Shown: piece after piece, positions 7,314 through 30,974 of the stretch
Layout of the letters: every line of letters begins with the position of its first letter
How positions within the stretch are numbered: the first letter of the stretch is position 1
Source: Bacillota bacterium
GTDB taxonomy: Bacteria > Bacillota > Sulfobacillia > UBA995 > UBA9673
DNA: 33,452 nucleotides
Direction: 5' to 3'
NCBI GenBank assembly: GCA_003599345.1
Contig: QZJP01000022.1
Span: 1-33,452, forward strand
Position numbers and translations under genes: made by a program
The notes under the pieces: model-generated
The model's database searches: none
Told to the model about the DNA's origin: nothing
What the model saw: the letters and a program-made list of their open reading frames with translations, nothing else

Positions 7314-7331
7314 TCAAGACATCCCCTTCCG

Positions 7332-9386: not shown

Positions 9387-9465
9387 GAGCCCCACTCTCC
9401 GCTCGCCCGGGGCGGGGGGGCCACCCCCGCCTCTCTCCCGGTCGGGTCTCACGTCTTCCTGGACG

Positions 9466-11199: not shown

Positions 11200-11211
11200 G
11201 TCAAGCGCCTC

Positions 11212-13275
11212 CTACCCGTTCTTCCGGATGAGCATGTTCCCGTAAGCCGAGACCGTGGCGGTCCATCCAGGCGGGACGACCGTGGTCGACCCCGGCTCCT
11301 CCACGACCGCCGGGCCGGCCAGCTTGTTGCCGGCCAGGAGCCGTTCGCGCTCGTAGATTGGGGTCCGCTCGTTCCAACCGAGCGACGGGAAGTAGACCTT
11401 CCGGGTTCCCTTGAGGGCCTGGGCCTCGGGGCCGGCACCGCCCCGGGCGAGCTCGCGGAGCCTTGGGTTTACGACGAGCCCCACCGCCGTCAGCCTGAGG
11501 TTGACTATCTCAGTCGGCTCCTCAGGGGCGGAGTGCCCGTAGTTGCGCTTATGCAGCTCGTGGAACCTCGACTCGAGGTTGGCTTGCCAGTCGGTGTCGC
11601 CGGCCTCTTCGCCGAACGGCACGTTGACCGACCACTCCTGGCCCACGTAACGCATGTCGGCCGACCGCACGAACCTGCGCTTCTCCCGGGGAACGTCCTC
11701 CTGTTCAAGGACCTCGCCTGCCCGCTTTGCGAGCGAGTCAAACCTCTCGTCGAGCGTCGCCCGGTCGACTTCGCGCGTCTTGGTCAGAAAGGTCCAGGCG
11801 AAGTCGTGCCTGATGTCGGAGTAGAGCATCCCGAGGGCGGAGAACTGCCCCGGGGCCACGGGCACGAGGACTGTGGGTATCTCGAGCTCGGCAGCCACGT
11901 CGCATGCGTGCATCGGGCCGGCCCCGCCGAACGCCACCAGGGCAAACTCGCGCGGCGACAGCCCGCGCTCGACGGTCACGGCCCGAACGGCGTAGGCCAT
12001 CTTGGTGTTAACCACGCGGAGGATGCCCGCCGCGGCTGCGGTGCGGTCGAGCTTCAGCGGGCCTGCGACCTTCTCGTCGAGTCGCTTGGCCGAGAGGTCG
12101 GGCCTCACGGCCATTTCGCCCCCGAGGAAGTAGTCGGGGTTGAGGCGGCCGAGAACCAGGTTGGCGTCGGTAGTCGTGACCTCCGTGCCACCCTTGTCGT
12201 AGCAGACCGGCCCGGGTTCAGCCCCGGCGCTCTGCGGCCCCACGTTCAGGGCCCCCACCGAATCAACCCAAGCTATGGAACCGCCGCCGGCCCCGATGGA
12301 CTGGACGTCGACCATCGGAACCAGCAGCGGGTGGCGTTCAATCTTGTACTCCGTCCGGATAAGGACGTTCCCGTCGATGCTGACGCACACGTCCGTGCTC
12401 GTCCCGCCCATGTCGAATCCAATGGCCCGAGGTATCTTCTCGAGGCCCGAAACCTGGGCCGTCCCCACCGCGCCCCCTGCCGGTCCGGACATGAGCGTGC
12501 TCACCGGGCTCAGCTTGGTAACCTCTACCGACGAGACGCCGCCCGAGGACTGGCAGATGAAAAGACGGTGCATGTAGCCCTGCCTCTCGAGCTGGGTCTC
12601 CATGTTGGAGAGGTACCGGTCGACTATCGGGCGGATATAGGCGTTGATGGCCACCGTGCTCGTTCGCTCGTACTCCCGCCACTCGCGAGCCACATCGTGG
12701 GACAGGGAAACCGTGGCCTCGGGGTACTCCTCGGCAAGAATCTCGCCGATACGGTCCTCGTGTGCGGCGTTGGCGTAGGAGTGGATCAGGCAGACGGCGA
12801 TGGATCTGACGCCCTCGGCCTTGAACTTACGAACACAGGCCCTGACCTCGTCCTCGTCGAGGGGGGTGACCACGTTACCCCGGGCGTCGAGCCGCTCGGT
12901 GACTTCGAGCCGGTGCTCCCTGGGCACCAGCGGCTCAGGCTTGCGGTAACGCAGATCGTACATGCTCTCCCGGTTGTGACGGCCGATGTCGTAGATGTCG
13001 CGGAAGCCCCTCGTGGTGATGAGGCCGGCCTTCTCACCGCGCCGCATCAGAAACGCGTTGAGCCCGACGGTGGTCCCGTGCACGATCATCGAGACACGGT
13101 CCATGCTGTCGGACACCTTGCGGATGCCGGCCTCCACACCGAACCAGAAGTCCCGCGGCGTGGACGGCGTCTTGTACAGGGACAGGTCGCCGGACTTCTC
13201 GTCCAGGACGACTATGTCGGTAAAGGTCCCGCCGATGTCGACCCCCACGCGGTAGCCCCGATCACCTTCTGGCAC
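11212..13275 (-). CDS. Hydantoinase A/oxoprolinase family protein (HyuA copy 2)
   Basis: YRVGVDIGGTFTDIVVLDEKSGDLSLYKTPSTP..., FDMGGTSTDVCVS, FGGAGPMHACDVAAELEIPTVLVP; GTG at 13275 preferred over ORF-track start 13305 (which overlaps the upstream gene). Confidence 0.95.
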   Translation of the reverse strand: MPEGDRGYRVGVDIGGTFTDIVVLDEKSGDLSLYKTPSTPRDFWFGVEAGIRKVSDSMDRVSMIVHGTTVGLNAFLMRRGEKAGLITTRGFRDIYDIGRHNRESMYDLRYRKPEPLVPREHRLEVTERLDARGNVVTPLDEDEVRACVRKFKAEGVRSIAVCLIHSYANAAHEDRIGEILAEEYPEATVSLSHDVAREWREYERTSTVAINAYIRPIVDRYLSNMETQLERQGYMHRLFICQSSGGVSSVEVTKLSPVSTLMSGPAGGAVGTAQVSGLEKIPRAIGFDMGGTSTDVCVSIDGNVLIRTEYKIERHPLLVPMVDVQSIGAGGGSIAWVDSVGALNVGPQSAGAEPGPVCYDKGGTEVTTTDANLVLGRLNPDYFLGGEMAVRPDLSAKRLDEKVAGPLKLDRTAAAAGILRVVNTKMAYAVRAVTVERGLSPREFALVAFGGAGPMHACDVAAELEIPTVLVPVAPGQFSALGMLYSDIRHDFAWTFLTKTREVDRATLDERFDSLAKRAGEVLEQEDVPREKRRFVRSADMRYVGQEWSVNVPFGEEAGDTDWQANLESRFHELHKRNYGHSAPEEPTEIVNLRLTAVGLVVNPRLRELARGGAGPEAQALKGTRKVYFPSLGWNERTPIYERERLLAGNKLAGPAVVEEPGSTTVVPPGWTATVSAYGNMLIRKNG

Positions 13276-13282
13276 GCAGTCC

Positions 13283-15016
13283 TCACCCTTTCTTGAGCTG
13301 GTCACGCAACTCGGCCGTGGCGACGGGGTCGACGGTCAACAACCCTGGGTCGACGACAACCCCGTAGACGCGTCGGGCCTCCTCTATGGTCACGTAGTCT
13401 CGCTTCACGTCGAGGCGTACGGCTTCGGGGTCGCGCTCGAGGGGGTCCCCGTAACCTCCGCCGCCCCCGGTCCTGACGCTGACCACGTCGCCCGCCTTCA
13501 GGCGGTGTCCCGTGGCCTTCATCAGCCGCCTCGCCCCGGGCAGAGCTTCGTTGATGACGACAACGCTGTGCTCGCCGTCGTGGCCCCTGAAGACTCCCCA
13601 GGGGCGGAAGACCGAGCGGTCCATGATGCAAGTGGTCTGGGCGTCGTGGCCCAGGATGCGGTAGTCGCGGTAGTGGCCGAGCCCCCCGCGGTAGCGGCCC
13701 GCCCCTCCCGACCCCTCTCTGAGGGCGTATCGCTCGACCCTCAGCGGGAAGCGGTTCTCGATTATCTCCGCCGGGCAGTTGTGGGTGTCGCCGTCGGCCA
13801 GGAAAATCATTACGTTCTCGCCGTCGAAGCCGGCCCCGGCGCCCCACCCCCCGCCTTCGGGCTCCTGGTGGATGTAGGGGCGGCCGGTCCCCGGGTTGAC
13901 TCCGAAGATCATGAACCCGCCCATCTCGCCGTAGTGCCCGGCCGGGATGCGGTCGGGGAGGGCGGGCGAGAGGGCCTTGAGAACGGCCTCGATGAGCATG
14001 TTCAAGCTCATCATGTAAAGGAACGTGGACGCCGGGTAGGTGGCGTTGAAGAGCGACCCTTCCGGGGCCACGACCTCGAGAGGAGCGAAGTGCCCCTCGT
14101 TGGCCGGCTGGTGCGGGGAAGTCAGGCATTTGAAGGCGATGCGGCAGCCGCAGATAGTCGCCGGAAAACCGCAGTTGATGGGGCCCTGGACCGCCGGTGA
14201 CGACCCACCGAGGTCAAACAGCATCCGGTCCTTGTCGACTGTCACCGTCACCCTGATGCGGACGGGGTCTTTGCCGACGCCGTCGTTGTCGAGGTAGGTA
14301 TCGGCGGAGTAGACTCCGTCGGGGATGCGGCCGATGGCCTGGCGGGCTAGAGTCTCCCCCTGGGCGATGAGCTCGGCCATGCCCTCGACGACAACGTCCC
14401 TCCCCAGCCTCGACGCCAACTCGACGACCCGGTTCTCGCCCGTCCGGCATGCCGCCACCTGAGCTCTCAGGTCTCCCATGTGGCTTTCCGGGTAGCGGAC
14501 ATTGTCGTGGAGGATGCGGTAGACGCTCCGGTCCAGGCGGTCCTCGCGGAAGAGACGGACCGACCGCAGGCGTATGCCTTCCTGGAAGACGTCCGTCGAG
14601 TCGGTGCTGCCTCCGGGGTCCTTCCCCCCAAGGTCGAGCCAGTGCGCCCGGGCGGCGGTGAACCCCACGACCTCCGGGCCGCAGAAGATCGGGCTGATGG
14701 CCGTCACATCGTTGACGTGGTTGCCTGTCAGGTACGGGTCATTGATCAGGTAGACGTCGCCGGGCCTCATGTCCGCGAGCCCGACGTCTTTCACTACCTG
14801 ACCGACGGCGATGCCCAGGTTGCCGAGGAAGATCGGGAGGCCGGCGGCTTGGGCCACCATACGGCAGTCGCGGTCGAACAGCCCGACGCTGAAGTCGAGG
14901 ACCTCGTAGATGATTGGGTTGTAGGCCGTGCGCATGAGGTTCGACCGCATCTCGTCAGACGCGGCGACAAGACCGTTGCGGATGACCTCGAGTGTTACGG
15001 GGTCGACTCTACCCAT
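13283..15016 (-). CDS. Hydantoinase B/oxoprolinase family protein (HyuB copy 4)
   Basis: MGRVDPVTLEVIRNGLVAASDEMRSNLMRTAYNPIIYEVLDFSVGLFDRDCRMVAQAAGLPIFLGNLGIAVGQ..., VRTGGGGGYGDPLERDP. Confidence 0.95.
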   Translation of the reverse strand: MGRVDPVTLEVIRNGLVAASDEMRSNLMRTAYNPIIYEVLDFSVGLFDRDCRMVAQAAGLPIFLGNLGIAVGQVVKDVGLADMRPGDVYLINDPYLTGNHVNDVTAISPIFCGPEVVGFTAARAHWLDLGGKDPGGSTDSTDVFQEGIRLRSVRLFREDRLDRSVYRILHDNVRYPESHMGDLRAQVAACRTGENRVVELASRLGRDVVVEGMAELIAQGETLARQAIGRIPDGVYSADTYLDNDGVGKDPVRIRVTVTVDKDRMLFDLGGSSPAVQGPINCGFPATICGCRIAFKCLTSPHQPANEGHFAPLEVVAPEGSLFNATYPASTFLYMMSLNMLIEAVLKALSPALPDRIPAGHYGEMGGFMIFGVNPGTGRPYIHQEPEGGGWGAGAGFDGENVMIFLADGDTHNCPAEIIENRFPLRVERYALREGSGGAGRYRGGLGHYRDYRILGHDAQTTCIMDRSVFRPWGVFRGHDGEHSVVVINEALPGARRLMKATGHRLKAGDVVSVRTGGGGGYGDPLERDPEAVRLDVKRDYVTIEEARRVYGVVVDPGLLTVDPVATAELRDQLKKG

Positions 15017-17834: not shown

Positions 17835-19469
17835 CTAACGCGCCCCCCGCTCGCGGAACTGGTTTGGGCTTACCCCGAAACGCCGGGTGAAGAGCGAGCT
17901 GAAGTAGCTGCCGCTGCTATAGCCCACTTTCCCGGCGACCTTGTGGATGGTCTGGTCCGTGGACCGGAGGAGGTCGCACGCCCGGCCGAGCCGGACCTCC
18001 GTGACATACTCGCCGAGCGTCATACCGGTGTGCAACTTGAACAACCTGGCGAAGTAGTACGGGCTCAGGTAAACCATTGCCGCTACCCGGCGGAGGTTCA
18101 GAGGCTCACTGTAGTGCGCCTCAACATAGGCCTTGGCAGCCAGGACGGCCCTTTCTCCCACCGAGGTGGAGTCAGCCAGGCGCCGCCCCAGCTCCTCAAC
18201 CAACCCCGTAACGACCGCCGGGGCATCCGGCTCGAGTGGGCCCGGTCTCTCGGACAGGAGTTCCTCGAACTCCTGACGGAGCCTGGCGACGGTCTCCACC
18301 GCCAACCCCCCGCGAACGAAAGCGGTCCCGATGAGGCCGGCTAGAACGCGCGCCTCGCCCACCGCGTCGTCGTGACGGAGGTCGCCCAGTATTTCCCCGG
18401 CCAACCGCACCACCCGAGGCATGTCACCTTTCAGGGCGGCCTCGCACAGGTCGGCCTCGAGGCCGAGAAGCCTGGCTGCCGAGAACGTGCCGCTCGCCCC
18501 CAGCTTGGAAAGGGCGGCCCGATAGGAGCCGGGGAAATCGCGCACGTCCCAGCAGTAGGTACCGGCAGCAACCTGAGCCTGGTCGCCTAGGGAATCCCTT
18601 ACCCACCCGACGGCGCGAGAAACCCACTTGTCGGGGTCCGCTGACTCGTCCGGGCCCGGCGACAGCGCCAGAATCAGCCTACCCCGCTCACGCCATGCCA
18701 GGACCTCCCCTCCGGGCCAGTCCACGAGAGCCGTTCCCCAACCGGTACCGGGGTCCCCGGCCCGGGCCCGGCCGGACCCGCTGGGTGGGACCCCCGCCAC
18801 TTCGGCCAGGAGACTAGGATGCCCGGGCCCCCGGGGTGCCGCTGGATTCGTGTGGGCCGGGTCCTTGCCCATGACATCCGCGACCACGACGAGCCGGGGC
18901 GGAAGGTTGAGGCCTAGAGCTCGCGCTTGGGCCTCGAGTTCGGAACGGTCGAAGAGAGAGGGGCGGGTGATAAGGATGTTCAGGTAGTCCCGCCGCATGA
19001 AGGGAAGTAGCGACCGGACGACCTCCTCGGTCTCCCGGGCCCGGGCCTCGCGGACGACCTCCCGGCCCCGGCTGGCGAGCACCCTGCGGAGGGCGTTCCT
19101 GAACTCGTCCTGCCTTATGGGCTTGACGACGTAGTCGATAGCCCCGAGCCTGACGGCCTCACGGGCGTATTCGAACTCAGGGTGAGCGGTGAGAAAGACG
19201 ATGTGGGTCTTGGAAGCCTTCCTATGCATGTGCCTGGCCGCCGTAATGCCGTCCATCCTGGGCATCCGGATGTCCAGGAGCACGATGTCGGGTCTGGTCT
19301 CATCGAAGACAGCCAGGGCTTCCTCGCCGTCTCGGGCCTCGCCGACGACCGTGACCCCGGGGTGGCTGGCCAGGAACCGCCTGAGCTGCCCGCGGGCGCT
19401 GGCTTCGTCGTCCACGATGAGAACCCGTGCGGGTCCCAGGTTGCCGGCGCCTGGATGGACCACGCTCAT
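17835..19469 (-). CDS. YesN-type response regulator (REC + AraC-type HTH)
   Basis: ARVLIVDDEASARGQLRRFL ... DIVLLDIRMPRMDGITAARHMH ... YVVKPIRQDEF; C-terminal AraC HTH LNLRRVAAMVYLSPYYFARLFKLHTGMTLGEYVTEVRLGRACDLL ... GYSSGSYFSSLFTRRFGVSPNQFR. Confidence 0.95.
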   Translation of the reverse strand: MSVVHPGAGNLGPARVLIVDDEASARGQLRRFLASHPGVTVVGEARDGEEALAVFDETRPDIVLLDIRMPRMDGITAARHMHRKASKTHIVFLTAHPEFEYAREAVRLGAIDYVVKPIRQDEFRNALRRVLASRGREVVREARARETEEVVRSLLPFMRRDYLNILITRPSLFDRSELEAQARALGLNLPPRLVVVADVMGKDPAHTNPAAPRGPGHPSLLAEVAGVPPSGSGRARAGDPGTGWGTALVDWPGGEVLAWRERGRLILALSPGPDESADPDKWVSRAVGWVRDSLGDQAQVAAGTYCWDVRDFPGSYRAALSKLGASGTFSAARLLGLEADLCEAALKGDMPRVVRLAGEILGDLRHDDAVGEARVLAGLIGTAFVRGGLAVETVARLRQEFEELLSERPGPLEPDAPAVVTGLVEELGRRLADSTSVGERAVLAAKAYVEAHYSEPLNLRRVAAMVYLSPYYFARLFKLHTGMTLGEYVTEVRLGRACDLLRSTDQTIHKVAGKVGYSSGSYFSSLFTRRFGVSPNQFRERGAR

Positions 19470-21106
19470 CAGCCTCTCCCCCGTGAAGACTTGGCCGGTA
19501 TTCTGATGACCACGACAGTGCCTGAACCGCTGTCGCTGGAGATGTCCATGTGGGCATCCTGCCCGTAGTGGAGTTGGAGTTTCTGGCGGACCAGTCTGAG
19601 CCCAAGACCGGTCACCTGCCTGCCGGTCGTGAGCGAGGCTTGCGGCGGCTCGATAAGGAGCCCGTCCGGCAGGCCCACCCCGTCGTCGCGCACCTCGACC
19701 TCGACATGAGAGCCCACACGCCGGGCACTGAGGCTAATGCGACCTTCGTAGTTGCGAGGCCCGAGCCCGTGCACGACGGCGTTCTCCACGACGGGTTGCA
19801 GGACAAGGGACGGGACCGGGGTTTGCTCGAGACGCCGCGGCACCTCGACCGCCACGTGGAGGGTCGAGCCGAAGCGGTTCTGCTGGATGGTCAGGTAGTT
19901 GGTGACGCACTGGATCTCCTCCCGCAGGGGCACGAGGTCCTCGCGGGCGGCCAAGACGTAGCGAAGGAAGTCCGACAGCGCGTAGACCATCCGCTCGGGC
20001 TCAGGTTCTCCGGCCGTTATGGATGACGCGATCATGTTCAAGGAGTTAAAAAGAAAATGAGGGCTGAACTGGGCTTGGAGCAATCTGAGCTGCGTGTCGG
20101 CCAGAGCCTTTTCCAGGTTTCGGACCACTTCCGTCTCCTGAGCGAGCCGTTCGTTGTACTCCCTCAAGAGCCGCTCCCGCGTCTCCCTGGCAGCGGACTC
20201 GACCAGCGAACTCATCGCCGTTTGGAGCGACTCGGCGGCGGCCCGAAGGGGAGTGTTCAGCACGACGGGCACCTGGCGGTAAGCCTCCAGCAGAACCGCC
20301 GCCTCGGCGCCGGTACGGGCGTGCCTCCTTACCTCCTCCAGATGAGCGTCCCGCGGGGGCTCGAGCAGGACGAAACCACAGACCACCGAGCCGAGGTAGC
20401 CCCCGTCCGGGCTGATCGGGACGGAGAAAGCCACTATCCCGCAGCAGCACTCGCACAGGTGCTGGATGTCCGTAGCGCGCTCGTCCGGTCGAGTTCGGGA
20501 GACGCACGGAATGTCACGGCAACCTCCGTCGACCTGCTCGCGCCGCAGCCGGCAGAAGGCCGGGAGATTCGAAGGTTTCGTCACGCCGCGCCCCAGCTCG
20601 TCCAAAACCAGCACTCCGAGTCCCGTGGCTTCGGCAAGGGCGTCCTGAATGCGCTGCAGAGACCCCACGGACACGATCTCACGCAGACTGGGAGGGGGTT
20701 CGGGCCTGACGACGTCCGGCCTCGAGGGAGGTAGCGGGAGCTGTACCTGAACCGGGTTGTAAATCGCCAGTAGGTGTAGCGGCTCGGGGCCCGGGTTCTC
20801 CAGGACGTGGGTGACCCCGTCCGGGAAGTGACGGAAGACCCCGGGACTGAGGTCGTGCCACTCGCCGTCGATTGCCTGGCGACCTTGCCCACTAAGAACG
20901 TAGAGGCCTTGCTCGTAGCCCGAGTGCCGGTGGGGATCCCACTTCCGGCCGGGTTCCACGGTCACAAGGGCTACGGATAGACCGGCTGACTGAAGTGCGG
21001 CCGTGTGGAGCCATTGGAAGCTGGCAATACCGAACTCCTGCCGGGGCGCCTGGTACAATTGGGGGCCGCCGGAGACGAACCGCACTCCGTGCGTTCCTTT
21101 GCTCAC
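19469..21106 (-). CDS. Cupin-PocR-LytS/YesM-type sensor histidine kinase
   Basis: N-terminal cupin (GRKWDPHRHSGYEQGLYVLSGQGRQAIDGEWHDLSPGVFRHFPDGVTHVLEN). PocR-type sensory region (LQRIQDALAEATGLGVLVLDELGRGVTKPSNLPAFCRLRREQVDGGCRDIPCVSR...LCECCCGIVAFSVPISPDGGYLGSVVCGFVL). His_kinase box (LQAQFSPHFLFNSLNMIASSI) and HATPase (DDGVGLPDGLL...GLGLRLVRQKLQLHYG). Confidence 0.9.
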   Translation of the reverse strand: MSKGTHGVRFVSGGPQLYQAPRQEFGIASFQWLHTAALQSAGLSVALVTVEPGRKWDPHRHSGYEQGLYVLSGQGRQAIDGEWHDLSPGVFRHFPDGVTHVLENPGPEPLHLLAIYNPVQVQLPLPPSRPDVVRPEPPPSLREIVSVGSLQRIQDALAEATGLGVLVLDELGRGVTKPSNLPAFCRLRREQVDGGCRDIPCVSRTRPDERATDIQHLCECCCGIVAFSVPISPDGGYLGSVVCGFVLLEPPRDAHLEEVRRHARTGAEAAVLLEAYRQVPVVLNTPLRAAAESLQTAMSSLVESAARETRERLLREYNERLAQETEVVRNLEKALADTQLRLLQAQFSPHFLFNSLNMIASSITAGEPEPERMVYALSDFLRYVLAAREDLVPLREEIQCVTNYLTIQQNRFGSTLHVAVEVPRRLEQTPVPSLVLQPVVENAVVHGLGPRNYEGRISLSARRVGSHVEVEVRDDGVGLPDGLLIEPPQASLTTGRQVTGLGLRLVRQKLQLHYGQDAHMDISSDSGSGTVVVIRIPAKSSRGRG

Positions 21107-21174: not shown

Positions 21175-22845
21175 CTAGCGGAGGATGAGTCGCCCGCGAC
21201 TCCGGTCGACGCTCCGACCTTCCTCGACGACCACCCGTCCGGCCTGGACTGTGGTGAAGGGCCACCCCACAAGCCGACACCCGTCGAAAAGAGAGAAGCC
21301 GGCCCGTGACCCAAGTTCGTCGTGGCGGATGGTCGTCCGGCGCTGGACGTCCACAAGCACGGCATCCGCGTCGCTGCCGGGAAGCAGGGTCCCCTTGCGG
21401 GGGTACAGCCCGAAGACCTCACTGGGCCCGCGTGCGAGAAGCTCGGCTGCCCGGACTATCGAAAGCCCTCTTCCTATAGCCCCTTCGGTGAGAACCGCCG
21501 CCAAATGGGTGGCCATCGCCGGGTATCCCGGCATGACGTCTCCGAAGGAACCGCCAAGGCCCTTCTGCTCGCGGGTCATGGTCACGTTGTCGGTGCCCAG
21601 GGCGGAGACCGTACCGTCCTCGACGCCGCGCCAGAGCGCCTGCCTGTCTTCCTCGCTTCGAAACGGGGGCACCATCTTGGCGACGGAGCCCCTGTCCGAA
21701 TCCCACGACAGAACCAGATGGGGTGAAGCGACCTCGGCCACCAGGCTCAGGCCCGAGGCCCGCGCTTCACGCACCGCCTGGAGCCCCGACGCGCTTGAGA
21801 CATGGACGGCGTAGACGGTCGCTCCCGTTACGCGCGTCATCCACGCCAGCCGCCGGATGGCATCCTCCTCGGCCTGTGACGGGTGGGTTTCTGCCCAGTT
21901 CCTAAGTTGTCCTTGTGATCCGACCTGGTAACTGTTGCTTTGGGTGCCTCCGCCGCCCGGGACGGAACCAGCCGAGTCCGCCGGCGGCCCCCCCGCCGGC
22001 CGCGACGCCCGGGCGACGATGGAGGCGTTCTCGGCGTGAACACAGGCCACGCACCGTTTCCGCGCCGAGGCACATCGCCTGAGCCCCTCCATCAGGAAGC
22101 CGTCGTCCACTTCCTGGATCAGGCCGGGTATGCCGCACATGTAGAACTTGAACGAGGTCACGCCGAGCTCGGCGTAGAGCGTCATCTCGTCGAGTTGCGT
22201 CTCGGTCCCTATTATCAGATGAGGGAACACGTCCACCGAGCTGTGCTCCTCGACGATCTTGTCCAGTCTCTCGAGAAGGGACTGGTGGGGTCCCGGTCCG
22301 CCCAGGTAGCAGCCGATGGTCGTCACGCCGCCCAAAAGCGCCGAACGTGTCTCGGTCTCGAGGTCCTCTTCGAGGCCGGCGAACAGCCCGAGGTGGACAT
22401 GCGGGTCGACGACCCCGGGGAGGACGTACCGTCCCGCGGCGTCGAGAACCCTCCCCGAGTCGCGCGGCGCTCCGGACCCCAGGCAGACTACACGCCCGTT
22501 CTTGATCCAGACGTCGGTCTCGAACGTCCCTTCGCCGGGCAGAACCACGACACCGCCGGTAATGGCCAAGTCGAGACGTGGGCGTGTGTGGACCGAGGCC
22601 TGGGCCGGAACCGGCCCTTGGCGCTGGGCGTCATCGTGAGGGCGAAGCGCCGGCGCCACCCCCGACGGTTGGCCCTCCGCGGCGAACGCCTCCCCCGTCT
22701 CACTCAGGCGGACGATGCGCATCCCCAGCCGTTCGGCCAACTCCTCGGCCTCGCCGGTAACCACGTCCCCCGGCGAGAGGACGACCTCCCTCTCCCCTAG
22801 GGCCCACCTGAGTTCGATATCGCGTGAAGTGATGAACTCTCTCAT
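21175..22845 (-). CDS. Dihydropyrimidinase/hydantoinase-type cyclic amidohydrolase with N-terminal BMC-associated domain
   Basis: GRYVLPGVVDPHVHLG, SFKFYMCG (candidate carbamylated Lys), CVHAEN, YAVHVSSASG, GTDNVTM; N-terminal MREFITSRDIELRWALGEREVVLSPGDVVTGEAEELAERLGMRIV shared with the aminotransferase at 23825-25192. Start ATG at 22845 chosen over the ORF-track 22875. Confidence 0.9.
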   Translation of the reverse strand: MREFITSRDIELRWALGEREVVLSPGDVVTGEAEELAERLGMRIVRLSETGEAFAAEGQPSGVAPALRPHDDAQRQGPVPAQASVHTRPRLDLAITGGVVVLPGEGTFETDVWIKNGRVVCLGSGAPRDSGRVLDAAGRYVLPGVVDPHVHLGLFAGLEEDLETETRSALLGGVTTIGCYLGGPGPHQSLLERLDKIVEEHSSVDVFPHLIIGTETQLDEMTLYAELGVTSFKFYMCGIPGLIQEVDDGFLMEGLRRCASARKRCVACVHAENASIVARASRPAGGPPADSAGSVPGGGGTQSNSYQVGSQGQLRNWAETHPSQAEEDAIRRLAWMTRVTGATVYAVHVSSASGLQAVREARASGLSLVAEVASPHLVLSWDSDRGSVAKMVPPFRSEEDRQALWRGVEDGTVSALGTDNVTMTREQKGLGGSFGDVMPGYPAMATHLAAVLTEGAIGRGLSIVRAAELLARGPSEVFGLYPRKGTLLPGSDADAVLVDVQRRTTIRHDELGSRAGFSLFDGCRLVGWPFTTVQAGRVVVEEGRSVDRSRGRLILR

Positions 22846-22849
22846 GGCC

Positions 22850-23506
22850 CTACCCAACCGGCGGCCCTGAGTCACGACGGCCCCGGGAGGCGAGGGATTC
22901 TATGGCCGTCAGGGCCGCCTGGCGGGCAGCCTCAACGTGGGACACCGACCCCGATACGAAGAGCCTCCCGTACTTTCCGACCGGGTCGAAGTCGACGAGG
23001 GTGATGGATGAAGCCTTCTCGGCTTCGTTAGCCGCGACGACGATGTAGCCGGCCGGCTCGACCTCGAGAATGAAGAGGGCCTGCCCGGCGACCACTAGTG
23101 AGCCGTGCCTGGCGCGGTTGATGAGCTGGGCCTCGTAGGGGCTGACGCTGGTGACGACCGTGTCGGAAACGACCCGTGGGGCCAAGGCGTCGGCCGCTGT
23201 CAGGCCGAAGTGCCCGAGCAGCACCCTTCCGGCCTCCCGCACGTCTCCCACGGACGCCGAGTGTACCTCTATCTGGCCGAACTCCCGCTCCACCATCAGC
23301 CAGCCCGGCCGCACGTCAGTTGCTTTGAGGGCGGCGTCGAGCGCGGGGTAGACGTCGCTACCCGGGGCCAGTTCGACCCAGAGCTCGGCCATGCCGGCCA
23401 CGGGCGTGTCACCCCTGGCGACCGACCCCACCAGGGCGGCGAACTGGGGCTGCATGTTATCTATCAGGGCGAAGGTCCTGAGCCCCCGCGCCTTCTCTTC
23501 CGTCAA
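22850..23506 (-). CDS. BMC-T: tandem-domain bacterial microcompartment shell protein
   Basis: TFALIDNMQPQFAALVGSVARGDTPVAGMAELWVELAPGSDVYPALDAALKATDVRPGWLMVEREFGQIEVHS... plus a second BMC-like half LFILEVEPAGYIVVAANEAEKASSITLVDFDPVGKYGRLFVSGSVSHVEAARQAALTAIESL; TTG start with GAGGTGA at about 7 nt. Confidence 0.88.
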   Translation of the reverse strand: MTEEKARGLRTFALIDNMQPQFAALVGSVARGDTPVAGMAELWVELAPGSDVYPALDAALKATDVRPGWLMVEREFGQIEVHSASVGDVREAGRVLLGHFGLTAADALAPRVVSDTVVTSVSPYEAQLINRARHGSLVVAGQALFILEVEPAGYIVVAANEAEKASSITLVDFDPVGKYGRLFVSGSVSHVEAARQAALTAIESLASRGRRDSGPPVG

Positions 23507-23513
23507 AGCCGCG

Positions 23514-23807
23514 TCACCTCGACCGCCCCTCGATTGTCTTGCCTTGCGCGGTCACCGAATCGAGGATGGCCACGATGGCCGCGTCTACCGGGACCTGTAC
23601 CCCTGCGGCGTGCCGGGCCGGGTCCCCTGTGACTACGGCGACGACGTCACCTTCCCCCGCTCCGGTCAGGTCCACGGCCAGGCAAGTCGGCGCGGTCGCC
23701 GGGGCCCCGAGCCCCGCTAGTGGCTCGCAGACGAGCAGTTTGTACCCCTGGAGTGACCCGTGCTTGACTGTCGAAACCGCCTGACCGGTCACCCGGCAAA
23801 TCAGCAT
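23514..23807 (-). CDS. BMC-P: EutN/CcmL-family pentameric vertex protein
   Basis: 97 aa MLICRVTGQAVSTVKHGSLQGYKLLVCEPL...CLAVDLTGAGEGDVVAVVTGDPARHAAGVQVPVDAAIVAILDSVTAQGK; true start is the internal ATG with CGGAGGGG upstream, so the ORF-track ORF (to 24059) is over-extended. Confidence 0.93.
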   Translation of the reverse strand: MLICRVTGQAVSTVKHGSLQGYKLLVCEPLAGLGAPATAPTCLAVDLTGAGEGDVVAVVTGDPARHAAGVQVPVDAAIVAILDSVTAQGKTIEGRSR

Positions 23808-23824
23808 GGCGATCAACCCCTCCG

Positions 23825-25192
23825 TTAGCGGCGCAAGATGAGGGCGATCTCGCCCACGACCCGCTCGATGTCCTCGGGTCTGATGAAGAAGTGGGGGGCC
23901 ACCCTGATGACTGGCCCGCGCGCCGACGCGATTATGTTCCGAGCTCTGAGGGCCACCTCCACGGCATGGGAGTCCCCTCCCGGAACATCGATGGCCGTGG
24001 TTGGGCCCTTCCGGCTGATGTCCTCCGGGCTGACCGACTTCAGACCGTGTCTGCGACACGCGTCCAGGGCCACCCGCGAGAGCATGTCGACACGGTCACT
24101 GATAGCCTTCGGGCCAAGGTGGTTGACAATCTCCATCCCAGCCCTCGCGGCGAAGGCAGGCATCACCGGCGGGGTCCCGGTGTCAAACCGCCGGGCATCA
24201 CGCGCGTAGTCGAGGAGGCGGACTTCGAACGAGAACGGGTTCTCCTGCCCGAACCAGCCCGTCACCGCCGGCGTGAGGCCCGGCACGAGATCCCTCTTCA
24301 CGTAGAGGAAGGCGATGCCCGGAATCCCCAACAGGTACTTGAGGTTACCCGATGCCAGGAAGTCGATGTCCAGAGCCTTCACGTCCAGCGGGCAGGTCCC
24401 GAGAGACTGGTAGGCGTCCACGAGCACCAACGACCCACGGGAGTGCGCCAGGCGGACGACCGGCTCGAGGTCTTGCTTGAACCCGTTGAGGTAATATACG
24501 TGGGTGATGGACGCGACCAGGGTATCCTGGTCGACATAGCGGTCGTAGTCGTCGAGCATCAGTTGCCCGTCGCGTACCGGGACGAACTCCACCTTGTAAC
24601 CGTACTTCTGGTGGGCCAGCCACACATGGCCCACTGTCGGGAACTCGGCCTCGGTGGCGACGACTTTCCGCCGTCCGTTGGCCGTTCTCAGGGCCGAGGC
24701 CACGGAGGAGACCGCCTCGGATACGGACGTGGAGACCGCTATCTCGTCCGGGGAGGCCCCGATGAGACGCGCGAATTCGGCCTTGGCCCTGCTCACTTCG
24801 GCCATCCAGTAATCCCAGTCCATGCCGACCGTGAGCCAGTTGTCCAGATACGCCTCGATTGCCCGGCGGACGTGGCGTGACTGGGGCCCCTGGCTGCAGT
24901 TGCCCACGTGGATGGCGTCAGCCAGGATAGGGAACTCCTCCCGCCAAGCCGCGACCACGCTCTCATCCATTAGGGAACCGCGCGGCCAGGCAGGTGGCCC
25001 GCCGGGTTTGGACCAGGACTCGGCGGCTGGGGCGCCGGCGGGGGAGTCGACGATACGGACACCCACCCGGGCCGCCGTCTCGCGGGCGGCCTCCGTGAGG
25101 ACCACGCCGGGCCTCAGGACCAGCTGAGTGGTGCCCGACCTCGCAAGGTTCTCGAGGTCGGCGGATGTGATGAACTCCCGCAACCCAGACAC
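23825..25192 (-). CDS. Class V PLP-dependent aminotransferase / cysteine desulfurase-like enzyme with N-terminal BMC-associated domain
   Basis: PLP fold motifs STSVSEAVSSVASAL, LVLVDAYQSLGTCPLDVKALDIDFLASGNLKYLLGIPGIAFLYV (SGNLKYL candidate Schiff-base Lys), RFDTGTPPV; N-terminal LREFITSADLENLARSGTTQLVLRPGVVLTEAARETAARVGVRIV. Confidence 0.9.
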   Translation of the reverse strand: MSGLREFITSADLENLARSGTTQLVLRPGVVLTEAARETAARVGVRIVDSPAGAPAAESWSKPGGPPAWPRGSLMDESVVAAWREEFPILADAIHVGNCSQGPQSRHVRRAIEAYLDNWLTVGMDWDYWMAEVSRAKAEFARLIGASPDEIAVSTSVSEAVSSVASALRTANGRRKVVATEAEFPTVGHVWLAHQKYGYKVEFVPVRDGQLMLDDYDRYVDQDTLVASITHVYYLNGFKQDLEPVVRLAHSRGSLVLVDAYQSLGTCPLDVKALDIDFLASGNLKYLLGIPGIAFLYVKRDLVPGLTPAVTGWFGQENPFSFEVRLLDYARDARRFDTGTPPVMPAFAARAGMEIVNHLGPKAISDRVDMLSRVALDACRRHGLKSVSPEDISRKGPTTAIDVPGGDSHAVEVALRARNIIASARGPVIRVAPHFFIRPEDIERVVGEIALILRR

Positions 25193-25212: not shown

Positions 25213-25500
25213 TTACTTACCGGCCTTGGTCTCCTGCATTCCGAAGAGGGCGAGCACGTCCGTGTGCGGCCTGGGGATGACGTGAACGGACACCAGTTCG
25301 CCCACCCGCTTGGCCGAGGCGGCGCCGGCGTCGACGGCTGCCTTAACCGCGCCCACGTCGCCCCTCACGATGACGGCGACCAGACCGCCGCCGGCGTTCT
25401 GCTTGCCGACGAGTTCCACGTTGGCGGCCTTCACCATAGCGTCGGCCGCTTCTATGGCGGCCACAACACCCTTCGTCTCCACGAACCCCAAAGACAGCAC
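25213..25500 (-). CDS. BMC-H: canonical hexameric microcompartment shell protein
   Basis: [90 protein letters not shown]; classical PduA/EutM-type sequence; GTG start with AGGGAG upstream, internal to the ORF-track ORF. Confidence 0.97.
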
Positions 25501-25519
25501 TAGACTCGACTCCCTTTCC

Positions 25520-26293
25520 CTATGTGGACTCTGACGGCCTTTCCGGGGCCGTCTCCGGACAGCGGGCCGGCGGTTCCTCCACCCGGTCCGATACCTCCAC
25601 GAGCGCGTCCACCGCCAGGCAGCCCTCCCCCTCGGCCAGCACGACAAGAGGGTTGACGTCGATTGACAAGACATCGGGACGCTCGAGCAGGACCCTGCCC
25701 AGCGACTGGGCCACCGCGACCAGCGCCCGCACGTCGCGACGCCTCCGCCCGCGGACTTCGCCGAGCAGGGCGGCAGAGCGCAACTCACCGAGGCCCCGCA
25801 TGACGTTCGCCTCGAAGACGGGCGCGAGGACGAAAGCAACGTCATCGAAAAGCTCCGCGTAGACGCCCCCCAGGCCGATCATGACTACGGGACCGAACTG
25901 TGGGTCCCTGACGGCGCCGGCGATCATCTCCAGGCCGGCGCCGGCCATCCGCTGGACGAGGAAGCCCGTCCGGCCCCCGGGCGCCGCGTCGCTTACCCGG
26001 GCCTCTATCCTCCCGACGGCCTCCTCGAGTTCCCGGGGGGTCCGGAGGTCGAGTTCGACGCCGCCTATGTCCGATTTGTGAGCCAGGCCTGGGACGAGAA
26101 CTTTGACCGCGACGGGGTACCCGATGCTCCCGGCTACCTTGGCGGCCTCCTCGCGGTCTTGGGCCACCCCCCAGGGAGCGAAAGGAACCCCGTAACCGGC
26201 CAGTAGCGTTGCGGAGTCAGCCTCCGAGAGTGGAAGCCCCGTGCGGTTCCCCCTGATCCCGGGCCCGCTCGTCCGGATGCCGGCCTCACTCAT
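25520..26293 (-). CDS. ADP-forming acyl-CoA synthetase beta (ATP-grasp) subunit
   Basis: [74 protein letters not shown]...[44 protein letters not shown]...[11 protein letters not shown]. Confidence 0.92.
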
Positions 26294-27794
26294 CGTCCTC
26301 GGAGCGATGACCCCACTCACCGTCCCCACCACCGCCCTTGAGGAAGTCCCGGTACCGGACCAAGTTGGCGAGGGCGCGCACCGCCCGGTCGGGGGTCTCG
26401 AAGGTCGGTAGGCCGCTGTCCTCCAGTATCCGCCTGCCGGACCGAACCACGTCGCCGGCGAGGATGACCGTGAGGAGCGGCTTCGTCCCTGCCCGCTCTG
26501 ACGCGCGCCGGTAAGCGTCGGCCACAGCCCGCCCCAGTTCCTCGACGTCCAGGTACAGGGTGGGGACAGTGATCATGATAAGAGCGTCGACGCCGGGGTC
26601 GGACAGGAGCAGCTCGACGGCCCGGGCGTGTTGCTCCACCGTTGCGGCCGCCGTCATGTCGCAGTGTCCCTCCGGGCGGCACACGGAGGCGAAGGGTGGA
26701 AGCAACCTAACCAATGCCTCGCGGGTCTCCCGCGAGACCGTCGCCAGCCGGAGAACCTTTCCCGCGCCGCCCCCGGCGGCCAGGAAGTCCATGCAATACG
26801 CGCCGGGACCGCCGGCCTGGGTAGCCAGGAAAACCCTGGGCCCCGACGGCGGCAGCCTATCGAAGGCCTGCAGAGTGTCCGTAAGCTCGTCGGCGCTGTC
26901 GACCCTCACTATACCGTGGTCACGGAAGGCAGCCGAGTAGACCCGGTCGGACCCGGCCATCGACCCGGTGTGCGAGTGAGCCGCCTCGCTTCCTTGAGCC
27001 GTACGCCCGACCTTTAGGACGACGACCGGCTTCGCGCGGGCGACGCGCCCCGCCGTCCGGACGAAGTCACGGGCTTTCTCGTGGCCTTCGAGGTAGACCC
27101 CGACGACCCGGGTCAGGCTGTCCCCGTCAAGGTAGTCAAGAAGCTCTATCAGGTCCAGGTCAGCCATGTTACCGAGGCTGCAGAACTTGCTCACGCCGGC
27201 CGGCGCGGGCTGGGCCGACCACCTGGCAACCATCCACGCCCCGAACGCGCCGCTCTGTGAGACCATCGACACCCCGCCGGCCCGTCGGCGCGTGCCTTGA
27301 ATGAAAGTCGTGTCGAGGCGGTTGGCGTTGTCGATGATGCCTACGCAGTTGGGGCCTATCTCCCGGACCCCGTATCTCCGGCAGATGCCGAGAAGGGCCT
27401 CCTGCCTCGCGCGGCCCTCGGGCGTACCCGTCTCGGCGAATCCGGCGGCGGTGGTGATCACCCCGCGGACGTCCCCGCGGGTCCTGAAGCGGTCCTCAAG
27501 GTCGGGAACCACGTGCTCGATAGCCGCGGCAGGCGCAGCTATCACCACCAAGTCCACCCTCTCGGGGATTCCGGCCAGGGCCCGGTGGCCGGGGTAACCG
27601 GCAACCGGCGCTCCGTGGGGGTTGATGGGAAATACCTTGCCTGGGAAACCCGCGTCGGCCATGTTGCGGACAATCTGATGCCCAGCCTTGAGGGGGTCGG
27701 AAGAGGCCCCTACGATAGCGACCCCCTCGACGCCCTCGAAGAAGACCTCGGCGCCGGAGCTACCCACCACCAACCTTACCCCCGTCTCCCTCAT
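26286..27794 (-). CDS. ADP-forming acyl-CoA synthetase alpha (CoA-binding/CoA-ligase) subunit
   Basis: VAIVGASSDPLKAGHQIVRNM...GKVFPINPHGAPVAGYPGHRAL...EIGPNCVGIIDN...SMVSQSGAFG...AAHSHTGSMAGSD (candidate phospho-His region). The 5' end overlaps the upstream gene; the exact start (27794 ATG or a GTG/TTG around 27765) is uncertain. Confidence 0.92.
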   Translation of the reverse strand: MRETGVRLVVGSSGAEVFFEGVEGVAIVGASSDPLKAGHQIVRNMADAGFPGKVFPINPHGAPVAGYPGHRALAGIPERVDLVVIAAPAAAIEHVVPDLEDRFRTRGDVRGVITTAAGFAETGTPEGRARQEALLGICRRYGVREIGPNCVGIIDNANRLDTTFIQGTRRRAGGVSMVSQSGAFGAWMVARWSAQPAPAGVSKFCSLGNMADLDLIELLDYLDGDSLTRVVGVYLEGHEKARDFVRTAGRVARAKPVVVLKVGRTAQGSEAAHSHTGSMAGSDRVYSAAFRDHGIVRVDSADELTDTLQAFDRLPPSGPRVFLATQAGGPGAYCMDFLAAGGGAGKVLRLATVSRETREALVRLLPPFASVCRPEGHCDMTAAATVEQHARAVELLLSDPGVDALIMITVPTLYLDVEELGRAVADAYRRASERAGTKPLLTVILAGDVVRSGRRILEDSGLPTFETPDRAVRALANLVRYRDFLKGGGGDGEWGHRSEDDE

Positions 27795-28704
27795 CGGGTC
27801 CGCCCGCGGCCCCACACAAGGCCTTCAGCCGTGCCCAACGCATCTCGGCCTCGGCCTGCATATCGGCCACGCTCTCCTCCGTCAGGTGAGCGAACTTCCG
27901 GAGGGAGCCCACAAACTCGCGGAGCGGTCGTGGCTTGGGAACGTCCCGCGTGAGCCTGAACCGGCCACGCTCGACCTCGAAGAGAGGATAGTAGCGGGTA
28001 AGCACGGAGAGCCGAGCCACTTCAAGACTCCGGTCCGGCGGAAACCCCCACCCGTTCACACAAGGATTGAGGACATGGATGTACGCCATCCCGTCGCGGA
28101 CCTCGGCGGCCTTCCGGACCTTGCCGACCAGGTCGGCGAGAAAACCGGGTGACGCCGTGGCTACGTAGGGCAGATCGTGCATGGCCATGATCATGGGGAA
28201 GTCCTTCTTGCGCTGGGCCTTTCCCCCGCGGGCGGGTCCGACCGGCGTGGTCGAGGTCCACGACCCCTTCGCGGTCGAGCCCGACCTCTGGAACCCCGTG
28301 TTCATATAGCCCTCGTTGTCATAGCAGATGTAGATGATGCGCTCGCCCCGTTCGGCCGCGCCGGACAGGGCCTGGAACCCGCAGTCCACCGACGCGCCGT
28401 CACCGGCGAAAGCCACGACGTTGACCTCCCGGCCCTTGCGCTCGCAGCCGAGCCTGATCCCCGCCAGCATTGACGCGGTGTTGTCAAGCAGCGGGAAGAA
28501 CACGGGGCATCTGGTGCCGGTGGTCCGCTTCCACCCGACCACCCCCACCCCACCCATGCACCCCGGAGGAATGGCCAGAATCGTGTTGGCGCCCAGAACC
28601 TTCAGCACGGTGCGCAGGGTGAGTTCGACGTTACAGCCCACGCAAGCAGAGATACCGGGGGAGAGAACGTCTTCGCGCTCTGCCAGGTAGTCGATGAAGT
28701 TCAT
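27760..28704 (-). CDS. 2-oxoacid:ferredoxin oxidoreductase, beta (TPP-binding) subunit
   Basis: CVGCNVELTLRTVLKVLGANTILAIPPGCMGG...VVAFAGDGASVDCGFQALSGAAERGERIIYICYDNEGYMNTGFQRSGSTAKGSWTSTTPVG; ATG at 28704 overlaps alpha stop (ATGA). Confidence 0.93.
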   Translation of the reverse strand: MNFIDYLAEREDVLSPGISACVGCNVELTLRTVLKVLGANTILAIPPGCMGGVGVVGWKRTTGTRCPVFFPLLDNTASMLAGIRLGCERKGREVNVVAFAGDGASVDCGFQALSGAAERGERIIYICYDNEGYMNTGFQRSGSTAKGSWTSTTPVGPARGGKAQRKKDFPMIMAMHDLPYVATASPGFLADLVGKVRKAAEVRDGMAYIHVLNPCVNGWGFPPDRSLEVARLSVLTRYYPLFEVERGRFRLTRDVPKPRPLREFVGSLRKFAHLTEESVADMQAEAEMRWARLKALCGAAGGPDEGDGGKVGGG

Positions 28705-29897
28705 CGTCCCCGCCCTCCCGAAAGCCACACCGTCGGGCAGGTGGCGGTCCCCCCGCGGCGCGAGGCCTCAACGACTGTCCGGACCGCCTTCGTCATGAGG
28801 TCCACGGTAAGGTCCTCTCCGCCCAAGCCGCCGACGAAGGCGACGGAGGGCACGGGCCTGCCCAGGTCCGACAATGTGGCCCGCAGCTCCTGGTGGATGA
28901 TTCCGGTGCCCCATCCGAAGGACACGTTGCGGTCCACAACCCCGAAGCCGCGGAGGTCCTTGAGAAGTCTGAAAAGCTCTGTAGCGGGCCAAGGACGGAC
29001 AGAGCGGACTTTCACCAGCCCTACCGGCACCCCGCGGTCCCGGGCCTCATCGACGGCCACACGGGCCGCGCCGGTCATGGAACCCAAGGTGACCAGAGCG
29101 AACTCAGCGTCGGCCAGGCGATAGGCGCTGACCGGCCCTCCCCAGTGTCGCCCGAACTTCCGGCCAAAGCTGGCATCGGCCTCCTTGATCACTTGGGCGG
29201 CCCGGCTCATGGCCAGAACCTGCTTCCGGCGGTATTCGGTCAGGAGAGCGCCCGGCGTAAGGGGGTCGACGGACATCGGGCGCTCGGGGTCGAGCAGGAT
29301 GTGCTCAGGCTCATAGCTGGAAGGCAAGTAGTCATCGACGTCACTCTGGTCCGGAACATCTACCCTCTCCGTCATGTGCGACAGGTAGAAGCCGTCGTAG
29401 CACACGTTCACGGGCAAGAGGACGCGCCGGTCCTCGGCGATACGAAAGGCCTGGATGACGGTGTCCAGGATTTCCTGGTTGTCCTCGACGTAGAGCTGCA
29501 CCCAGCCCGCGTCCCGCAGGGTCAGCGAATCCTGCGGCCCGCCCCACACTGTCTGGGGCGAAATCATCTCCCGGTTAACGATGACCATGACGATCGGCAA
29601 GCGGAGGGTGGGAGTCCGGAAGTAGGGCTCGTACATGAGCGAAAGGCCCTGGGAGGAAGTGGCCGTGAACGTGCGGCAACCGGTCAACGCGGCTCCCTGG
29701 AGGACGCTGAGGGCCGAGTGCTCGCTCTCGACCTCGCACAGGCTCGCGGTCAACTCGCCGTCGGCCGCCATCTGCGCCAGGTGCTCCACGATGGGTGTCT
29801 GAGGTGTAATGGGGTAGGCGGCTATCACGTCCGGCCGGCATAACTTGGCGCCGATGGCCGCGGCCTGGTTGCCGCTGAGAACCTGGACCGTAGTCAC
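28701..29897 (-). CDS. 2-oxoacid:ferredoxin oxidoreductase, alpha subunit
   Basis: VLSGNQAAAIGAKLCRPDVIAAYPITPQTPIVEHLAQMAADGELTASLCEVESEHSALSVLQGAALTGCRTFTATSSQGLSLMYE; GTG start at 29897 overlapping the upstream stop (GTGA). Confidence 0.94.
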   Translation of the reverse strand: MTTVQVLSGNQAAAIGAKLCRPDVIAAYPITPQTPIVEHLAQMAADGELTASLCEVESEHSALSVLQGAALTGCRTFTATSSQGLSLMYEPYFRTPTLRLPIVMVIVNREMISPQTVWGGPQDSLTLRDAGWVQLYVEDNQEILDTVIQAFRIAEDRRVLLPVNVCYDGFYLSHMTERVDVPDQSDVDDYLPSSYEPEHILLDPERPMSVDPLTPGALLTEYRRKQVLAMSRAAQVIKEADASFGRKFGRHWGGPVSAYRLADAEFALVTLGSMTGAARVAVDEARDRGVPVGLVKVRSVRPWPATELFRLLKDLRGFGVVDRNVSFGWGTGIIHQELRATLSDLGRPVPSVAFVGGLGGEDLTVDLMTKAVRTVVEASRRGGTATCPTVWLSGGRGR

Positions 29898-30811
29898 GCC
29901 CTCACCCCCTCCTCCACGAGGCTGAAGGCGTCGCGCGGGCACTCCGTGACACAGATGCCGCAACCCTTGCAGTAGGTCAAGTCGACGGCCACCCCTCGCC
30001 GGCTTCGCGGGGGGACGCCGGCGTTAAAGCTAACCGCCCCGACCGGGCAACTCACCACGCATACCCCGCATCCATTGCAGGCCTCGGCCTGCCACACCGG
30101 CCGGTGGGAACGCCATTCGCCCGTCTCAAGCACGTAGAGCTCGGTCCCGACCGGGGCCTCGTGCGGGCCGGTCTCGGGCCACTCGTCGATAGAGGCGGTA
30201 TCGCCGTCTTCCGAGGGGCGGGCGGCCGCTGACCCGCCGGAGCGGGGACTGAAGGTCCTGACCGCGTCGTAGCCTCGCATCACGGCCTTGGCGTTCGACG
30301 GTCCGAAGGCCTGGGCCGCTCGCTCGGCGACATCGGACACGACCACCCAGCCGGTGGCGCGGCAGAAAGCGCCGAGCATGACGGTGTTCGGAACGGCGCG
30401 GCCCAGGACGTCGAGGGAGATTCCTGTCGCATCCACGGCGGCGACGCTCGTGACGCCGGCCTTGACCGGCAGGAGAGAAGGCTCGCGCTTGGTGTTCAGG
30501 ACCAGGACCGAGCCTCCCGGCATGCCCTCGAAAACGTCGACCGCGTTCATCAGGGTCTCGTCGAGGACTACCACGCAGTTCGGATGGTAGACCTGAGTCT
30601 TGGGCCGGATGGGCTCCCCGCTGATGCGGACGAAGGCCGAGACCGGGGCGCCGCGCCGCTCGAATCCGAAGTACGGGATGGAGTTCGCGTACAGGCCCTG
30701 TCTCACCGCCGAGTGGACGATGATCTCAGAGGCCTTGACTGTCCCCTGCCCACCCCGGCCGTGTAGCCGCAGTTCCTTGGCTAGAGGCACCGCACATCTC
30801 CCCGGCTCCAT
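29894..30811 (-). CDS. 2-oxoacid:ferredoxin oxidoreductase, gamma-delta fusion (POR-gamma domain + 2x[4Fe-4S] ferredoxin domain)
   Basis: LRLHGRGGQGTVKASEIIVHSAVRQGLYANSIPYFGFERRGAPVSAFVRIS...; C-terminal CNGCGVCVVSCPVGAV...CKGCGICVTECPRDAF. Start either ATG 30811 or GTG 30790 (GGGGAG upstream of the latter). Confidence 0.92.
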   Translation of the reverse strand: MEPGRCAVPLAKELRLHGRGGQGTVKASEIIVHSAVRQGLYANSIPYFGFERRGAPVSAFVRISGEPIRPKTQVYHPNCVVVLDETLMNAVDVFEGMPGGSVLVLNTKREPSLLPVKAGVTSVAAVDATGISLDVLGRAVPNTVMLGAFCRATGWVVVSDVAERAAQAFGPSNAKAVMRGYDAVRTFSPRSGGSAAARPSEDGDTASIDEWPETGPHEAPVGTELYVLETGEWRSHRPVWQAEACNGCGVCVVSCPVGAVSFNAGVPPRSRRGVAVDLTYCKGCGICVTECPRDAFSLVEEGVRA

Positions 30812-30974
30812 CGAAAGGGTCTCGCCGAACGAGGCCGCCGGCGTGACGGCAATCGCGCATAGCCATCGCGCATACAGGAAGCGAAACCCCGTAGATTGAA
30901 AGGGACCTTCCGGTCGGCAGCCGGGCCTCCTTTGCGCCACGTTGCTCTACGAGGCCAACGATACTGCCACGTAA

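Follow-up and report, generated by a model that had tools for sequence, protein, structure and literature searches.

How the enzymatic core of a metabolosome is fastened to its shell is an open question, and the answers given so far are system-specific (CsoS2, CcmN, the N-terminus of PduB, EutQ). A bacterial microcompartment (BMC) locus on contig QZJP01000022.1 of a Bacillota bacterium (assembly GCA_003599345.1), analysed here as a stretch of 33,452 nucleotides that we refer to as the window, raises this question in a particular form: why should a class-V aminotransferase and an amidohydrolase of one locus begin with the same segment of 44 residues? Our analysis points towards a small folded module that is dedicated to BMCs and that probably acts as a shell-linker, tethering enzymes to the shell from within.

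A shared N-terminal module on two enzymes

The first of the two enzymes is a pyridoxal phosphate (PLP)-dependent aminotransferase/lyase of class V with a GTG start (23825..25192, minus strand; PF00266, E 2.7e-38), which carries the segment REFITSADLENLARSGTTQLVLRPGVVLTEAARETAARVGVRIV at 25049..25180 on the minus strand. The second, a hydantoinase/allantoinase-like amidohydrolase with an ATG start (21175..22845, minus strand; PF01979; TIGR02033 with 225 bits, below the cut-off), carries REFITSRDIELRWALGEREVVLSPGDVVTGEAEELAERLGMRIV at 22711..22842 on the minus strand, recognised by sequence and by profile match. An earlier note, made from the DNA alone, had described a gapless alignment of the two segments with about 23 identities, and this holds: 23 of 44 residues are identical with zero gaps, and the BLOSUM62 score of 98 compares with a mean of 21 (sd 4.3) and a maximum of 50 in 20,000 shuffles. 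Together with the conservation across 27 orthologues described below, the shuffles rule out a chance similarity. The note was also right that both genes adjoin shell genes (a BMC-H, a EutN/CcmL pentamer and a CcmP-like BMC-T), that the subunits of the 2-oxoacid:ferredoxin oxidoreductase (POR) and the acyl-CoA synthetase lack the segment, and that EutQ starts with a similar one. A profile of the segment matched neither POR, acyl-CoA synthetase nor any other open reading frame of the window, and it identified residues 3-46 of EutQ as homologous. In the profile search of the organism's own genome, the two segments scored E 9.9e-27 and 2.5e-7 and the next best match 0.4, so that no convincing further copy was found. 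The annotation by Pfam and NCBIfam covers only the catalytic parts of both enzymes. A tblastn search of plasmids with a single segment yielded three weak, unrelated matches only, and a sequence search of the PDB gave nothing but matches of low complexity to designed TIM barrels.

The AlphaFold2 model of the aminotransferase segment as an isolated domain, computed with 25 relatives, reached a mean predicted local distance difference test (pLDDT) score of 92 and contains a strand-helix-strand unit twice (strands 4-6, 21-24, 28-30 and 44-47; helices 8-16 and 32-41). In the model of the full-length aminotransferase, module and catalytic domain are both folded and separated by disordered residues 51-72 (24977..25042, minus strand; pLDDT 34-37). 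In the amidohydrolase, a low-complexity linker of approximate extent (22567..22710, minus strand) follows the module, and the catalytic homology of the orthologues begins at about residue 85-93. The module is thus confidently predicted to be an independently folding α/β mini-domain of about 45 residues that lies outside either catalytic fold; that it could be part of a catalytic fold is ruled out by these models, in which it is separable, and by its fusion to many folds. A Foldseek search of solved structures gave no counterpart at E ≤ 0.001. We also considered a circularly permuted peripheral (E3-binding) subunit-binding domain owing to the motifs TPxAR...A and ITxxDV, and rejected it, since neither Pfam nor, at E ≤ 0.001, the fold comparison with the PDB gave support. 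Classical encapsulation peptides, such as those of PduD, PduP, EutC, EutE and CcmN, share the terminal position, the disordered linker and the attachment to enzymes of BMC loci, but each consists of one amphipathic helix of about 15-20 residues, unlike the modelled module.

Occurrence of the module in BMC loci

A profile of 28 enzyme segments (A2), searched in 388 genomes of a clostridial class and 299 genomes of the window's phylum, matched 20 and 47 of them, respectively, at E ≤ 1e-3; a profile of 55 modules (A3), searched in two other phyla (346 and 297 genomes), matched 12 and 15 at E ≤ 1e-4. Overall, the module profiles match about 90 of some 1,300 genomes. Shell genes were present in 59 of 60 fetched neighbourhoods of the first pair of searches and in all 25 of the second (84/85 in total), compared to none of 20 random 18-kb stretches taken nearly all from the same genomes as the A2 hits. 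The lone exception (L076; L numbers designate loci) is a partial match of 20 residues in an unrelated open reading frame of 188 amino acids with no shell genes nearby, which we treated as chance. The aminotransferase accounts for only a few of the hit loci (L066, L087, L146, L158), which means that the enrichment does not depend on the seed family. Hence, the module occurs almost only in BMC gene clusters and is dedicated to bacterial microcompartments.

The same picture emerges from the aminotransferase. A scan of species genomes gave 31 loci, to which whole-genome searches added more. Many of them, in Clostridia, Spirochaetes, delta-type proteobacteria and others, keep the gene order around BMC-H, BMC-P, BMC-H, BMC-T, amidohydrolase, POR and acyl-CoA synthetase. 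Within this BMC locus type, all 27 distinct aminotransferases of the orthologue group with an intact N-terminus, the one from the window included, carry the module (E about 1e-12 to 1e-21). Shell genes lie on the fetched stretch for 26 of the 27; the remaining one (L057) is on a 3.2-kb contig of a genome that does contain a BMC domain. Homologues outside BMC loci lack the module: a paralogue in the organism's own genome (L025, contig C80), a Tissierellia protein (L045), two from Aminicenantes (L058 and L060, the latter with a truncated N-terminus) and three from Shimazuella. Profile searches of the six genomes other than the organism's own found neither a BMC domain anywhere nor the module. 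The own-genome paralogue, 62% identical and encoded beside a hydantoinase A gene with no shell genes, is a natural non-compartment control. The hand-tallied table (26/1/1/6) gives a Fisher p of 3.5e-5, in which kinship is not corrected for. In the aminotransferase tree, label changes are forced at least three times, and L045 is nested among module-bearing sequences with strong support, which suggests that the module was lost together with the BMC.

The amidohydrolases differ from one another at the position concerned. Only four carry the module (those of the window, L030, L059 and L064). In clostridial orthologues (L034, L037, L042, L044, L046-L048, L052-L054), the N-terminus consists of a short, conserved DIFSDYIKK-type segment followed by a linker, resembling a classical encapsulation peptide. 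In spirochaete and delta-type orthologues (L041, L038, L050, L055, L056), two or three tandem motifs of the FLPDWI, FLPEWI or FVPDWV type take the place of the module in a disordered-looking N-terminus and possibly represent a repeated short linear targeting motif. We infer a targeting role for both alternatives; the exchange of unrelated N-terminal elements on orthologous amidohydrolases of the same locus type fits such a role for the module as well.

Relation to EutQ, PduM and further proteins

Where else does the module occur? Compared with 18,950 NCBIfam models, it found its best four matches in TIGR02536 (3.5e-13), PduM (2.3e-7 and 1.2e-5) and EutQ (1.1e-6), and beyond these families nothing scored below E 0.02. 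With the 28 enzyme segments alone, the top families were again TIGR02536 (4e-5), EutQ (1.8e-4) and PduM (2e-3). The window's segment by itself does not significantly match the EutQ model (E 0.04), while the family does: the enzyme-only profile matches residues 3-46 of E. coli EutQ at E 2.3e-5 (Z of 4300 proteins) and the broad profile at 5e-9. By hhalign, we obtained 98.6% (E 7e-16) against the N-terminal modules of EutQ-type proteins and 98.8% against the C-terminal modules of TIGR02536/PduM-type proteins; since these target alignments had been gathered with the segment profile, the NCBIfam models, being independent of it, provide the better test. Judged from these profile comparisons, EutQ 3-46 (H1/H2) and the C-terminal ends of PduM and TIGR02536 proteins are homologues of the module.

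The relationship is confined to the module. In EutQ, the N-terminal region (1-99, with H1/H2 at 9-41) is likewise followed by a flexible stretch and encoded in a BMC locus. Unlike the window enzymes, however, EutQ additionally contains a C-terminal cupin domain (PF06249/NF012001) and H3/H4, to which other enzymes attach by their encapsulation peptides, whereas the catalytic parts in the window belong to PF00266 and PF01979, and the module is joined straight to two metabolic enzymes. In PduM (TIGR04493, NF011957, PF15953), the same module forms the C-terminal 45 or so residues, and a core-binding signal lies at residues 1-23. The 'ethanolamine utilization protein' family TIGR02536, the strongest family match, has it at model residues 161-206, also C-terminally, some members having a flavoprotein-like body. 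PduM and TIGR02536 proteins thus bear a C-terminal module on a structural protein, while the window enzymes bear it N-terminally. In the cobalamin adenosyltransferase EutT, the N-terminal match is partial (E 1.8e-7 in L163, 0.01 in E. coli) and divergent, with the second half of the module alone recognised.

The fusion partners are diverse. EutQ-type cupin proteins carry the module N-terminally in about 30 loci, TIGR02536/PduM-type proteins C-terminally in about 20, and it is also fused to a BFD-type [2Fe-2S] protein (L155, L147) and to EutT (L163, L170), in addition to PLP enzymes, amidohydrolases, an aldehyde dehydrogenase and RpiB. In an acetylating acetaldehyde dehydrogenase (L110:7312-9228; TIGR02518, 717 bits), an N-terminal module is followed by an encapsulation-peptide-like helix and then by the catalytic domain. 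A TrpB-like PLP enzyme (L086:8998-10713; 628 bits) with a C-terminal module is encoded in a locus with shell genes and is possibly an undescribed BMC enzyme. In RpiB (L159:6661-7482), a helix-like N-terminus and the module precede the isomerase domain. Furthermore, in small proteins of 102-174 amino acids, a low-complexity linker connects the module, placed first or last, with a single helix-like segment (L072:3152-3577, L073:8039-8344, L108:6197-6718, L154:8018-8353, L157:7419-7772, L160:8821-9150, L166:6463-6792). From their composition, they are candidate minimal adaptors between shell and core.

A putative role in shell docking

But, what would such a module do on an aminotransferase and an amidohydrolase? 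Published work on its relatives gives hints. In Salmonella, superfolder GFP (sfGFP) reaches the Eut BMCs when joined to EutQ 1-99 alone. Without residues 62-99 EutQ remains shell-associated, whereas without 9-41 it accompanies the cargo, and these deletions led to H1/H2 being regarded as the shell-side part and H3/H4 as the part that binds cargo peptides (PMC12487888). EutM is the in vitro partner of EutQ (PMC4827028). Loss of PduM leads to partial separation of shell and core (PMC9132943); PduM 1-23 targets the core, and PduM without these residues still weakly associates with compartments (PMC12108088). As the module coincides with EutQ H1/H2 and with the PduM C-terminus, both sets of results are consistent with one shell-side module plus one core-side helix. 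We thus hypothesise that in the linker proteins one half, the module, would contact the shell, and an encapsulation-peptide-type helix on the other half the enzyme core. The window locus would bypass the adaptor, the module being fused via a disordered linker directly to aminotransferase and amidohydrolase. The tether point would be the inner face of the shell, probably the surface of BMC-H or of both BMC-H and BMC-T. For the window organism, we infer shell binding on the lumenal face and, as a result, encapsulation of both enzymes.

This modifies the earlier note, which had proposed a BMC cargo-targeting tag. The targeting part is supported by distribution, fusions and separable fold; a peptide tag it is not, being a folded module of about 45 residues, and as it also occurs on the structural linker proteins EutQ, PduM and TIGR02536, 'shell-linker module' fits better than 'cargo tag'. 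The further proposal that only the two module-bearing enzymes are lumenal finds no support: most orthologous amidohydrolases of the same locus type lack the module as well and have other N-terminal elements, and POR and acyl-CoA synthetase could enter as untagged cargo by other peptides or by piggybacking.

Several points weigh against a shell-linker. A divergent aminotransferase copy (L040, near-identical in L049) is encoded in a BMC locus and lacks the module. The aminotransferase orthologues are, according to the tree, related by descent, so that their number does not equal independent events. For EutQ, the GFP-targeting construct comprised residues 1-99, and the role of H1/H2 alone was shown by deletion only (PMC12487888); the H3/H4 part is absent from the window enzymes. 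Finally, the EutQ contact has earlier been placed on the presumed cytosolic face of EutM, and Q64K abolishes binding (PMC4827028), and the window's BMC-H has K at the position of Q64.

The shell face used by the module is the main uncertainty. It could dock the enzymes on the outer, cytosolic face, where aminotransferase and amidohydrolase would feed or drain the compartment from outside. Held et al. assumed contact of EutQ with a cytosol-facing EutM helix, and mutants of K53, D57 and Q64 abolish in vitro binding (PMC4827028). Almost all BMC-H proteins of these loci, that of the window among them, retain K53 and D57. Both residues are, however, broadly conserved among EutM relatives; we therefore rejected their conservation as docking-site evidence for lack of specificity. 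Moreover, in the later in vivo study EutQ was located within the Eut BMC as a bridge from shell to core (PMC12487888), and the modules are often paired with encapsulation-peptide-like helices, which belong to the lumen. Docking on the outside thus appears unlikely to us.

It is likewise improbable that the module is a scaffold of the core, binding other enzymes, encapsulation peptides or itself with only indirect shell contact. PduM does follow the enzymatic core and not the shell when the two separate (PMC9132943), and encapsulation peptides of metabolosomes condense cargo (PMC12339742). But the core-binding signal of PduM is residues 1-23 and not the C-terminal module (PMC12108088), EutQ without H3/H4 remains with the shell (PMC12487888), and the minimal adaptors hold the module together with a separate helix, suggesting two different partners. 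A function other than targeting, such as ligand binding, oligomerisation or stabilisation, is very improbable: the module is a folded domain and not a peptide, and no solved structure resembles it closely enough to assign a function, but its partners (cupin, PLP enzymes, amidohydrolase, aldehyde dehydrogenase, RpiB, adenosyltransferase, [2Fe-2S] protein) share no ligand and have the BMC locus in common, while homologues in genomes devoid of BMCs do without it.

Further features of the locus

The annotated genes of the window, a BMC locus, all lie on the minus strand, in the series POR gamma-delta/alpha/beta, acyl-CoA synthetase alpha/beta, BMC-H, aminotransferase, BMC-P, BMC-T and amidohydrolase. 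The presumed docking surfaces are a EutM-like BMC-H (25213..25503; PF00936, E 1e-29; NF012018), the main hexamer with 67% identity to E. coli EutM over 84 residues, and a CcmP-like BMC-T (22850..23506; PF00936; NF053796, 222 bits); these two are the only BMC-domain genes of the whole genome. Between BMC-T and aminotransferase lies the gene of the EutN/CcmL-type vertex protein BMC-P (23514..23807; PF03319, E 6e-22). The enzymes devoid of the module are the ADP-forming acyl-CoA synthetase (beta and alpha, 25520..27815; PF13549, PF13607) and POR (beta, alpha and gamma-delta, 27760..30940; family matches). In the BMC locus L049 (6088-7539), a second, divergent aminotransferase is fused in frame to an amidohydrolase, which supports a common pathway for the two enzymes.

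Beyond the amidohydrolase gene follow a histidine kinase with cupin and PocR sensory domains (19469-21106) and an adjoining AraC-type response regulator, which are probably the regulator of the locus. Downstream of the BMC genes, a run of several hydantoinase A and B genes (3053-15016) beside an ABC/CbiQ-type transporter suggests a cyclic ureide-like substrate. BUF-type BMC loci (Axen 2014, Ravcheev 2019, Sutter 2021) likewise combine shell genes with an amidohydrolase, and no aldehyde dehydrogenase is seen; the window's class-V aminotransferase, 2-oxoacid oxidoreductase and ADP-forming acyl-CoA synthetase mismatch the xanthine/BUF1 list. The orthologous locus L048 lies in Maledivibacter halophilus, for which BUF1 and BUF3 have been reported, and the window's locus type is probably a candidate BUF3.

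Significance

In the searchable literature, subscription papers and supplements excepted, we found no work that joins EutQ, PduM, TIGR02536 and EutT by a shared domain, nor a report of this domain on an aminotransferase or amidohydrolase. PduM was described in 2025 as having no known homology outside Pdu (PMC12108088), and the Pdu operon was said to be without a EutQ homologue (PMC4827028). On balance, we favour the view that this mini-domain, BMC-specific and so far without a name, serves metabolosomes in general as a shell-docking unit, paired with a core-binding helix in adaptors (EutQ, PduM, TIGR02536 and the proteins of about 110 amino acids) and fused directly to enzymes in some loci, and that it constitutes a second targeting code besides encapsulation peptides. 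If so, the C-terminus of PduM would be explained, a single construct would test the fastening of core to shell in many systems, and engineered compartments could be loaded by a folded alternative to aggregation-prone encapsulation peptides. Where the function of a BMC locus is unknown, the module also provides a simple sequence marker by which cargo can be assigned.

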